In this document: piece after piece, positions 12,100-16,779 of the stretch
Position numbering within the stretch: position 1 is the first letter of the stretch
Layout: each line of letters starts with the position of its first letter
NCBI GenBank assembly: GCA_022775085.1
Contig: JALFJQ010000007.1
Coordinates: 18,249 to 82,248, forward strand
Direction of reading: 5' to 3'
Origin: Clostridiales bacterium
GTDB taxonomy: Bacteria > Bacillota > Clostridia > Oscillospirales > Oscillospiraceae
Length of the DNA stretch: 64,000 nt
Program-made: the position numbers and the translations under genes
Notes under the pieces: generated by a model
Seen by the model: only the letters and a program-made list of their open reading frames with translations
Databases searched by the model: none
What the model was told of the DNA's origin: nothing

Positions 12100-12141
12100 C
12101 AGAATGTTGAATCGTCAACTTCTTTGCTGTGGGAGAAGCCT

Positions 12142-13737
12142 ATGAATCATGAACCCATTGGGCCGATGGAGGCTCTGAACCGCCTATGCGGCTTTCACCA
12201 ATACTGTCTGGACACGCCACGGCACTTATGCTATGTCAATCAGAATCTCTGCGATCTGCTGGGTACCTCCGAAGCGGAGCTGCTTGCGCAGGACCGGGAC
12301 GGGTATCTGTCTTTTCTTCATCCGGAGGACCGGGAGGAATACGAAAGCTTTCTGGTGCAAATGGGACAGACTGCCCAGACCAAAGCTCTGCAATACCGCC
12401 TTGTGAGCCGGGCAGGACAGGTCATTCATGTCCTGGACACCGTGACCGCCTACAGATTCGAGGGCCGCTGGATGGCGGACAGCGTACTTGCGGACGTGAG
12501 CCGTCAGCAGCAGGAACGGCTCCAGCAGGAGCGGGGACAGTATCTGCGGGCGCTGTCCGAGGTCTACGACAAAATTTTCGAATTTGACCGGGTGCACCAC
12601 ATCGTCAAGTGCCTGTATGGTCACAATTCCCCCAGCTTTCGCTGGCTTCAGAACATCCCCATGGAAATGGAGAGTGCCACGGAGAACTGGATTACCAGCA
12701 CCGCAGCGGAGGGGGATCGGGAAGCTCTGCGGCGTTTCTTTGGAAGCTACTGGGAGCGCCCCGAGGATCGTCCCGCCCGGATTTTCTACCATGCCCGTTC
12801 TTCTTCCGGGGAATATAAGCCCTATGCCGGCATCTTCCTCAAACTGGACGACAACCTGAGCCTGTACTGCTGCCGGTGCTGCCAGAATGAGCAGGAGGCC
12901 GAAGCCCTGCGGCAGGAAAATGATTCCCTGAAGAATGTGCAGGCGCTGACCATGCAGTTTACACAGGGCATGGTGGCCTTTGAAGTGGAGGATAACCGGG
13001 TCAGACCCCTGTTCAGCCACGAAAATGTGTGCAGCTTCTTCGGCTATACCCAGGAGCAGTGGAGCGCTCTGGCCGAAACCAGGCCGACCATACGGGAGTT
13101 CTCCGCAAGGAACGGCACGGCCTACAGCGACATCCAAACGCTGTTTTCTACAGGAGAGGCGGAGTTCCCCTATTTTGACATCCAGCACAACACCTACCGC
13201 CGCGTTCGGGCCATCTGCTCGAGAAAGTATGACGGTGTGGGTAAATGTTATGTGATGCTCTACCGCATGGAAGCTCCCCGGCAGGAACCGGCAGAGCCTA
13301 TGGTCTATATCCGGACCTTCGGCTATTTTGACGTTTTTGTGGGAGAAAAGCCCATCGCTTTCCGCAATGAAAAGGCCAAAGAGCTGTTTGCTCTGCTGGT
13401 TGACCGGAAGGGCGGCTTCATTTCCTCCGAGGATGCCATTGGCTTTCTGTGGGAGGACGAGCCGGCCAACTCCCTGACCATGGCGAGATACCGCAAGGTG
13501 GCCCTAAGGCTGAAAAATACGCTGGAGGAATACGGCGCGGCGGACATTGTGGAATCCGTCAACGGCAAGCGGCGGCTGATCCCGGAGCGGGTGAAATGCG
13601 ACCTTTACGACTACCTTTCCGGAAACGAAGAATATGCCCAGCTGTTCAAGGGCAGCTATCTGACCAATTACACCTGGGGGGAAACCACCCTTGCGGAACT
13701 GACGGGGGAGTACCTGTACCCCCCGGAGGAACATTGA
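12142..13737 (+). CDS. PAS-domain protein with C-terminal SARP/OmpR-like winged helix
   Basis: PAS-like N-terminal half; C-terminus VYIRTFGYFDVFVGEKPIAFRNEKAKELFALLVDRKGGFISSEDAIGFLWED...YRKVALRLKNTLEEYG is typical of SARP/BTAD winged helices. Confidence 0.7.
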   Translation: MNHEPIGPMEALNRLCGFHQYCLDTPRHLCYVNQNLCDLLGTSEAELLAQDRDGYLSFLHPEDREEYESFLVQMGQTAQTKALQYRLVSRAGQVIHVLDTVTAYRFEGRWMADSVLADVSRQQQERLQQERGQYLRALSEVYDKIFEFDRVHHIVKCLYGHNSPSFRWLQNIPMEMESATENWITSTAAEGDREALRRFFGSYWERPEDRPARIFYHARSSSGEYKPYAGIFLKLDDNLSLYCCRCCQNEQEAEALRQENDSLKNVQALTMQFTQGMVAFEVEDNRVRPLFSHENVCSFFGYTQEQWSALAETRPTIREFSARNGTAYSDIQTLFSTGEAEFPYFDIQHNTYRRVRAICSRKYDGVGKCYVMLYRMEAPRQEPAEPMVYIRTFGYFDVFVGEKPIAFRNEKAKELFALLVDRKGGFISSEDAIGFLWEDEPANSLTMARYRKVALRLKNTLEEYGAADIVESVNGKRRLIPERVKCDLYDYLSGNEEYAQLFKGSYLTNYTWGETTLAELTGEYLYPPEEH

Positions 13738-13933: not shown

Positions 13934-15946
13934 TTACACGATCCTTGCCCACTCTGTAACCAGCAGACCGGGCACTGCCCAAATCAGCTGATACAGCAGA
14001 ATGTTGATCGGGGTCAGCAGCTCGGTGCTGCCCAGATACCCCAGAACCAGCATGATAATCAGGCCCAGCGTTCCACCGATCATGTGGACGATCACGCCCA
14101 GCTTGGTCGCCTGCCGCAGGGCACGGGCACCGGTAATGGCATAGGCAGAGCTGATCAGCTCCTCCCGGGTGGTCAGTGCCAGCACCGGCTCGTCGGGAGC
14201 AATGGGGTGATTTTGCAGTTTTTGGCAGGTGTCCCGATCCGGGAACGCGATCCGGTTGGTTTTCACATTGAATTTGCTGCGCAGAAAGTCTTCCGTCAGC
14301 ATAAAATCCCCGGCGAGCTTCAGCGGCTTCAGCTTGCGGTAACCGCACAGGGTCACAAGTCCGGCGGCTGCGGAGCGCATCTTGGCGTAGGAAATGGCGT
14401 AAACTGCGCACAGTTCCCCGTCCACAGCGGCATACACCGCCTGATTGACCATTGTCCCCTCGGGGATCTCCACGCCCATATCCTGCAAAAAGCGCATGGT
14501 GCCCACCAGAACAGGCTGGCCCTCCACTTCGCCGCCGATTCCGCCGTCGCCGTAGTTGCGGAAGCTGTGCACGGGGTACAGTCTGCCGCTGCGGCTCTGC
14601 AAAAGCTGGTCAAATACGGGCACCAGTCCGCCGCCGGCTGCGTGAATCACGGAGGCAGTATAGGAAACAACCTCATCGGGGCTGCGCTGTCCATAGAATT
14701 TGACGCCGTTGAGCTTAGTGCTGCCCTGAGGGAACAGATCCAGATCCGAAATGGGGAACACCACTTTCCCGCACAGGTCCTTGACTCCCTCCCAGCCGCA
14801 CAGCACGGTCCCCACCATGTGCAGTCTGGTTTCCAGAATTGCCATAGGACGGGTGACGGAGACGAAGAAGCTGGCGGGAACCGCCACCAGCAGCGAGGTG
14901 GACAGGATCTGAATGCCCATGCTGAGACCATGGAGCATTCCGGCGAACACGGCGATACCAATGCACACCAGCAGGCTCAGCACCGCGTAAATGGACTGCA
15001 CCACCTCAGGAGAGGACATCTTGTCGCAGTTGTCCATAAAGTCGGAGACCTCGCCCTCCTTGCGCAGCAGACCGTCCTTACCTTCATAGTAATTTTCGAC
15101 CCGCACGATGCCATGCAGCCGGACAGCCTTGCGCATGGTATCCATTTCTGCCATTTCCGTGTTGTGCCTTTGGAGTCTGGCCCACAGAGCCATGGTCATT
15201 TCCAGGCTGAAGGCGGCACAGCAGGGAACCCGCAGTTCCTTCAGGCAGAAGGCACTGTCGATGAGACAGGCGGCAAAGGTCAATGTCAGCAGGGTGTTCA
15301 CCGTGAAGCGGCCCTTCAAAAGGTCACCCAGGCTGTCCAGCATCAGGTTGCTGCCCAGGAAGGCAGAGACCAGCATGGCCAGCACCTGGCTGAAGATCAC
15401 CAGTTTCATCCGGTTTTCCGGCACCAGGTCCAGAGCAAACATCGCGGTAACACCAGTACAAATCAGCACGACCAGAGCATTCAGCAGAAGAGCCAGCTGC
15501 AGTTTGCCGATGCCCATTTCGGACAGCTCATAGTACCGCCGTTCCGGACCGGCAACCAGCTGCTTTTTCAGCTCCTTCAGTCGGGAACGGGGCGTGAATA
15601 CAATGGGAGCGGGAATGAATTCCTCCTCCACATCAAAGGCAGGCTCCGCCTTGGGGGGCTGAGGTGCTTCCGAGGGCATTTCTTCCGACAAATCCACCAC
15701 GATGGTAGGCTCGTCGGTGGCCTCCGGCACATCCGGCTCCCGCGGGCTGCCGAAGTCCTGGGTATCGTGAATGCCCGGATCCTCCGGCTCCGCGGGAAGT
15801 TCCTCCGCCGTCTCTGCCGCTTCCTCGTCCAGCCGCAGCTCCGGCATCCGCCCGGTGGGTTCCGACGGTTTTTCGGATTCCGGGTGCTCGCTGAATTCCT
15901 TCAGAATGTCCTCCAGGTCAAAATCCTGATTATTTTCCAGATCCAT
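13934..15946 (-). CDS. membrane protein resembling a degenerate P-type (P1B-like) ATPase; acidic Pro/Glu-rich N-terminus
   Basis: Paired TM helices plus P/N-domain-like layout, but DKTGT replaced by FPISDLDLFPQG and TGD replaced by AGD. Confidence 0.55.
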   Translation of the reverse strand: MDLENNQDFDLEDILKEFSEHPESEKPSEPTGRMPELRLDEEAAETAEELPAEPEDPGIHDTQDFGSPREPDVPEATDEPTIVVDLSEEMPSEAPQPPKAEPAFDVEEEFIPAPIVFTPRSRLKELKKQLVAGPERRYYELSEMGIGKLQLALLLNALVVLICTGVTAMFALDLVPENRMKLVIFSQVLAMLVSAFLGSNLMLDSLGDLLKGRFTVNTLLTLTFAACLIDSAFCLKELRVPCCAAFSLEMTMALWARLQRHNTEMAEMDTMRKAVRLHGIVRVENYYEGKDGLLRKEGEVSDFMDNCDKMSSPEVVQSIYAVLSLLVCIGIAVFAGMLHGLSMGIQILSTSLLVAVPASFFVSVTRPMAILETRLHMVGTVLCGWEGVKDLCGKVVFPISDLDLFPQGSTKLNGVKFYGQRSPDEVVSYTASVIHAAGGGLVPVFDQLLQSRSGRLYPVHSFRNYGDGGIGGEVEGQPVLVGTMRFLQDMGVEIPEGTMVNQAVYAAVDGELCAVYAISYAKMRSAAAGLVTLCGYRKLKPLKLAGDFMLTEDFLRSKFNVKTNRIAFPDRDTCQKLQNHPIAPDEPVLALTTREELISSAYAITGARALRQATKLGVIVHMIGGTLGLIIMLVLGYLGSTELLTPINILLYQLIWAVPGLLVTEWARIV

Positions 15947-15963: not shown

Positions 15964-16779
15964 TTATAAGCGCTGGCGTACCGCCTCATACAATAAAATA
16001 GATGCTGCGGCGGACGCGTTCAGGGAGCTGATGTGTCCGGCCATGGGAATGTTCACCATCACGTCGCAGTTCTTGCGGACGAGAGGGCTTAGCCCAGCGC
16101 CCTCGTTGCCGATGACGATGGCGGCGGGGCCGGTGAGGTCCGCCTGGTACATGGGGATGGAGCCTTCGGCGGCGGTACCGAAGATCCACACGCCCTTGTC
16201 CTTCAGCTGGGAAATGGCGTTATTGATGTTGGTGACCCGGGCAACCTTCATATACTCCACAGCCCCGGCGGAGGCCTTGGCAACGGTGGCAGTGAGGCCT
16301 ACGCTGCGGCGCTTCGGGATGATGACGCCATGGGCGCCGGCGCACTCCGCGCTTCGCAGAATGGCACCCAGGTTGTGGGGGTCGGACAGCTCGTCACAGA
16401 TGACGATGAGGGGCGCTTCCCCCTGGGCGGCAGCTTCTTCCAGAATGTCGTCGATGGTCACATATTCATGAGCGGCGGCAAGGGCGATGATGCCCTGATG
16501 GGCACGGGTAAAGGACATGGCGTCCAGTTTCCGGCGGTCAACGGGCACGACAACAGCCCCTGCCTCTTTGGCCTGGGCAGCCAGCCGCTGCAAGGCCCGG
16601 TCGGTATCACCGTCAGCTACGAAGACTTTATCAATGGTGCGGCCGCTTTTCAGGGCCTCGGAAATGGCGTTGCGGCCCTCCAGCTGGCCCTCCACTTCTT
16701 CCGTTTCCTCCCGCTGGGCGAATCGGTCAGCCCGGCGGGGAGAATTTTTCCGTCCGGCAGGACGGCGGTTTTCATCCAT
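15964..16779 (-). CDS. rlmB: 23S rRNA (guanosine-2'-O-)-methyltransferase, TrmH/SpoU family
   Basis: EGRNAISEAL, DPHNLGAILRSAECAGAHGVI, IVIGNEGAGLS, IPMAGHISSLNASAAASI. Confidence 0.93.
   Translation of the reverse strand: MDENRRPAGRKNSPRRADRFAQREETEEVEGQLEGRNAISEALKSGRTIDKVFVADGDTDRALQRLAAQAKEAGAVVVPVDRRKLDAMSFTRAHQGIIALAAAHEYVTIDDILEEAAAQGEAPLIVICDELSDPHNLGAILRSAECAGAHGVIIPKRRSVGLTATVAKASAGAVEYMKVARVTNINNAISQLKDKGVWIFGTAAEGSIPMYQADLTGPAAIVIGNEGAGLSPLVRKNCDVMVNIPMAGHISSLNASAAASILLYEAVRQRL

Follow-up and report, generated by a model that had tools for sequence, protein, structure and literature searches.

Introduction

A phospho-aspartate is the defining feature of P-type ATPases. Bacterial exceptions to the DKTGT motif are, in the literature searched, rare point variants only, and a UniProt survey of these enzymes listed 22 sequences with an altered DKTGT, all of them single point changes (PMC3896382). 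The nearest precedent that we found for the protein considered here is guanylate cyclase beta of Plasmodium, whose degenerate P4-ATPase domain has lost most of its signature residues whilst keeping its body (PMC6592433). Within the open-licence literature we found no paper describing the present family, a description elsewhere being possible, and none pairing 'pseudoenzyme' with 'P-type ATPase'.

The window analysed here, a stretch of 64,000 nucleotides, encodes a protein that resembles P1B-type ATPases such as CopA (TIGR01525 / PRK10671; Legionella CopA, PDB 4bbj) in its transmembrane (TM) layout of MA-MB-M1-M2-A-M3-M4-P/N-M5-M6, in the sequence and fold of its N domain, in the Asp of TGD and in being detectable by profile comparison. 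It differs from them in having neither DKTGT, TGE, GDGxND, HP and CPC nor the GMTCxxC domain, and in carrying an acidic disordered tail with an FxLEDILxEF element. Like the variants in the UniProt survey it has no intact DKTGT, but here the whole of DKTGT and two further catalytic segments are gone, and this in a conserved family (PMC3896382). Whereas the Plasmodium example is eukaryotic, P4-type and fused to a cyclase, this is a stand-alone bacterial protein of P1B descent.

Fold and descent

An initial annotation, made from the DNA sequence alone, had described a single intact frame of 670 codons with the helix and domain order of a P1B-type ATPase. The frame is indeed undisrupted (Table 1), and an AlphaFold2 model, run with 73 homologues and reaching a mean pLDDT of 85.7, shows the same order. 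All eight TM helices are present with high pLDDT: MA and MB at residues 147-171 and 177-197, M1 and M2 at 216-237 and 243-272, M3 and M4 at 312-339 and 341-378, and M5 and M6 at 597-638 and 646-664. Every ten-residue block from 121 to 660 has a pLDDT of at least 86, the majority exceeding 92. The P/N region occupies residues 380-592, and the A domain is reduced to a small beta remnant (278-297).

Table 1. Features of the pseudo-ATPase locus, in coordinates of the window
Feature	Position	Strand	Basis
ORF of predicted pseudo-P1B-ATPase, 670 aa	13934..15946	(-)	ORF, AlphaFold2, Foldseek, hhalign
Acidic Pro/Glu-rich disordered tail, residues 1-118, at the place of the CopA GMTCxxC metal-binding domain	15593..15946	(-)	pLDDT and charge
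FDLEDILKEF, residues 9-18, short predicted helix, best-conserved family region	15893..15922	(-)	conservation and model
Four N-terminal TM helices (MA, MB, M1, M2), residues 147-272	15131..15508	(-)	AlphaFold2
A-domain remnant, residues 273-311; TGE-bearing segment deleted in 119/119	15014..15130	(-)	model and alignments
M3-M4, residues 312-378; VPA (356-358) at the CPC site	14813..15013	(-)	model and alignment
SDLDLFP, residues 400-406, replacing DKTGTLT; D403, F405 and P406 family-conserved	14729..14749	(-)	alignment and conservation
N-domain-like region, residues 421-520; HP His lost, G469 (second G of GxG) kept, Y520 replacing CopA Asp	14387..14686	(-)	model and alignments
AGD, residues 545-547, at the TGD position; Asp547 in 118/119	14306..14314	(-)	alignments
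Residues 580-590, adjoining the deletion point of the CopA GDGxND segment	14177..14209	(-)	alignments
M5-M6, residues 597-664; W656 in 118/119	13955..14158	(-)	AlphaFold2 and family conservation
rlmB (23S rRNA G2251 2'-O-methyltransferase), directly upstream, 17 bp gap, pairing order-wide	15964..16779	(-)	NCBIfam and gene-order survey

The similarity to P1B-type ATPases goes beyond chance, since profile-profile alignment with twelve true P1B sequences (hhalign) gave a probability of 99.7 and E=3.1e-27, spanning the first TM region and reaching into M5, and a Foldseek search of the PDB returned Legionella CopA (4bbj) as its top match with E=1.2e-16 over 678 columns. The first 14 Foldseek matches are P1B ATPases without exception, so the fold comparison by which the initial annotation had proposed to be judged returned that fold and no unrelated one. 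Foldseek TM-scores are about 0.4-0.45 with a high rmsd, which we read as probably reflecting a differing orientation of domains. A PDB search with a 74-sequence family profile matched Cu-ATPases (best E=2.9e-6), while the same search with the single sequence gave no match; the more divergent family members match CopA models with E down to 4e-13. For the protein itself NCBIfam offers a weak CopA match alone (E=3.6e-4), which misses the curated cut-off (18.8 bits vs 1316 for PRK10671), and Pfam held no meaningful match or family for any of ten members tested. The protein thus shares a common fold and detectable sequence homology with P1B-type ATPases.

Loss of the catalytic motifs

We aligned 119 non-redundant family members jointly with true P1B ATPases. 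The residues that the initial annotation had quoted are all as it gave them, namely CGKVVFPISDLDLFPQGSTKLNG in the DKTGT region, GGIGGEVEGQPVLVGT in the N domain and AGD instead of TGD. It was also right that GDGxND is absent, to which the alignment adds that the segment is deleted rather than mutated: GDG is a gap in 119/119 members, as is the actuator segment that bears TGE. Ser400 is the alignment counterpart of the catalytic Asp, a position that varies across the family (Ser 21, Thr 21, Asp 16, Arg 13, Asn 12, and others; n=119). The Lys, the Gly and the last Thr of DKTGT each occur in none of the 119, and a conserved D-x-D-L-F-P stands in their place. No fetched family member has DKTGT at the site, although the annotation had named homologues with an intact motif as a possible counter-finding; DKTGS strings in two members (L185 and L039) belong to the N-terminal region (residues 137 and 193), away from it. 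The HP His is likewise found in 0/119, and at the CPx metal site of M4 the first Cys survives in two members and the second in none, with the Pro kept in 109. The Asp at the end of the CopA N domain has become Tyr (Y520) in 107/119. Re-use of the D-x-D at 401/403 in the manner of a HAD phosphatase was considered and rejected, because the GDGxND segment, which is HAD motif IV, is deleted and D401 is Asp in merely 84/119 members.

The pattern is one of lost catalysis together with newly conserved residues, not of random decay. With TGE, GDGxND, DKTGT, HP and CPC all gone, neither a phosphoenzyme nor metal pumping through the P-type cycle would be expected. Given that catalytic residues have been lost from a retained fold, in a conserved family under purifying selection (see below), the protein is almost certainly a pseudo-ATPase of P1B type, as far as sequence comparison can tell.

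Some residues of the nucleotide-handling region have nevertheless been held, raising the question of whether the remnant N domain might still bind ATP or ADP, through the GxG glycine and the TGD Asp, and switch conformation as a nucleotide sensor. G469 and D547 are each kept in 118/119 members and G482 in 119/119. The universal loss of the HP His and the retention of the first GxG Gly in just 22/119 speak against such binding, however, and the remaining glycines may be structural, so we think a sensor of this kind quite unlikely.

Distribution, selection and gene order

Named loci carrying the family come from Candidatus Faecousia and other Oscillospiraceae. A homologue is also present in a cultured Pseudoflavonifractor isolate (L141). 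Among 99 relatives, 96 gave a match and at least 94 carry the family, the lower figure arising because one genome matched through a true CopA only and another weakly. These carriers include 34 genomes from other families of the order, and the members fetched from them have no DKTGT at the site; nor do seven further members from within the order. Of 291 genomes sampled across the class, the order's 12 score 114-838 bits and the rest at most 74, and a phylum sample of 250 genomes shows the same break at the order boundary. Ten of the higher-scoring candidates from outside the order were fetched, and all ten proved to be ordinary ATPases with DKTGT. The pseudo-ATPase family is therefore order-wide and order-limited, and its presence in 94 or more of the 99 relatives, with motif loss shared by 119 members, rules out an isolated degenerate copy.

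The initial annotation had called the protein a maintained pseudo-enzyme and had suggested dN/dS as a check. Against the closest relatives this ratio is 0.07-0.09 for the core, indicating strong purifying selection, and 0.19-0.30 for the tail. The claim is borne out by the combination of a P1B fold, no DKTGT, purifying selection and an order-wide distribution with fixed gene order. Decay or sequencing artefact might be argued from the lost motifs, the fast divergence and two genomes with a split frame, but with the core dN/dS about 0.07-0.09, the gene intact in almost all genomes of the order and its gene order fixed, this explanation is refuted and deserves next to no credence. In the two genomes concerned (L040:5268-6560 and L057:6221-8448) the homologue is divided into two frames, by a frameshift or an assembly error.

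Of 142 readable loci, 141 have the gene directly downstream of rlmB and in the same orientation, a count in which some genomes appear twice through having been fetched by different routes; it comprises 138 loci recognised by script and three in which an over-called start hid the overlap, with three loci left out that end too soon. The median gap between the two genes is 13 bp. The sole real exception (L037) has rplU, rpmA and obgE directly upstream instead; there (L037:4469-8784) the pseudo-ATPase still sits in a ribosome-related operon. Mean identity is 20% for the pseudo-ATPase against 49% for RlmB, and the divergence of the two is correlated (Mantel r=0.76 over 46 loci, 0/2000 permutations), which is what joint inheritance of the pair would produce. 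Thirteen loci have an EF-G-like gene close by or immediately downstream, and three have a pseudouridine synthase after it. Near the EF-G-like gene, four lineages also encode a protein of 154-207 aa (L038:4896-5483, with relatives in L035, L041 and L063), in three of them between that gene and the pseudouridine synthase; a search of NCBIfam with one of these proteins found no match. The convergent neighbour in the window (12124-13737, plus strand) is a PAS-domain protein whose C-terminus resembles, by eye, a winged-helix/SARP-type regulator.

Near-order-wide retention in a near-constant operon points to a job other than pumping. Pseudoenzymes frequently regulate active relatives, and the dead homologue could accordingly be a regulatory partner, forming a heteromer with the genome's CopA/ZntA-type pump or sensing metal so as to tune it. 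Catalytic heavy-metal ATPases are present in 34/34 sampled good-quality genomes, but this co-occurrence barely discriminates, because catalytic P1B pumps were matched in 14/14 control genomes too. The CPC cysteines are lost, a disordered tail takes the place of the CopA GMTCxxC domain, and the constant neighbour is rlmB and no copper gene. A regulatory partnership of this sort seems to us rather improbable.

The N-terminal tail and a possible scaffold role

The acidic Pro/Glu-rich N-terminus of some 120 residues that had been noted at the outset is evident in the model and the composition. Residues 1-118 hold 25 Glu, 18 Pro and 12 Asp for a net charge of -31, and are predicted to be disordered except for a helix at 11-17, with pLDDT below 50 over 1-11, 19-48 and 53-117. 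The helix falls in F-x-L-E-D-I-L-x-E-F, which tops the family by information content, a measure weighted towards one genus, and is followed by the variable acidic tail. Across 20 genomes the strict FxLEDILxEF pattern matched at the pseudo-ATPase gene only. A looser pattern in 59 genomes established no second carrier; its matches outside the family were apparently internal stretches of CBS/CorC type (VTMEDILEEL). The conservation of the motif, and the confinement of its strict form to this gene in those 20 genomes, would suit a peptide with a single conserved binding partner. Four members (L039, L180, L181 and L185), of 1112-1455 aa, have a much longer N-terminal region.

These cytosolic features bear on whether the TM part might move a small substrate without ATP, as a passive transporter or channel. 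Its eight helices are kept with high pLDDT, and M6, where W656 is present in 118/119, ranks among the best-conserved regions. Conservation of the cytosolic P1 and N regions and of the N-terminal motif, however, equals or exceeds that of most TM helices, and the known metal-site cysteines are lost. A bare channel is disfavoured, because conserved cytosolic regions and an N-terminal motif would be superfluous for it, and we consider it quite unlikely.

We tentatively prefer to see the protein as a scaffold or receptor in the membrane that has no catalytic role and recruits a partner from the cytosol, perhaps one related to translation, and put the chances of this somewhat short of even. A CopA-like P1B ATPase would have turned into a pseudoenzyme no later than at the root of the order and been inherited vertically within it ever since, its eight-TM body and P/N domains kept under purifying selection as the five motifs disappeared. 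Anchored in the membrane, the protein may offer its P/N domain as a docking surface, and the FxLEDILxEF helix, on an acidic tether of about 100 residues, may capture the partner. The constant rlmB operon and the downstream EF-G-like genes in several lineages favour translation or ribosome maturation as the source of that partner, which on gene context is our leading guess. A bolder version, in which a core, order-defining protein co-expressed with rlmB holds ribosomes, or a factor for their maturation, at the membrane via FxLEDILxEF, is in our judgement unlikely though credible. Several points weigh against a scaffold. A shared operon may mean shared expression alone, active P1B ATPases in the same genomes leave room for a pump partner or regulator, evolution as fast as that seen relative to RlmB is unusual for a scaffold that makes many fixed contacts, and the information content behind the motif's conservation carries the weighting given above.

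Conclusions

A family that spans nearly a whole bacterial order, has shed three separate catalytic elements and is kept under selection beside rlmB would amount to a natural experiment on the uses of a P-type fold that no longer catalyses. The gene would also join the core genes of gut bacteria as a new one, and one with a testable partner motif.
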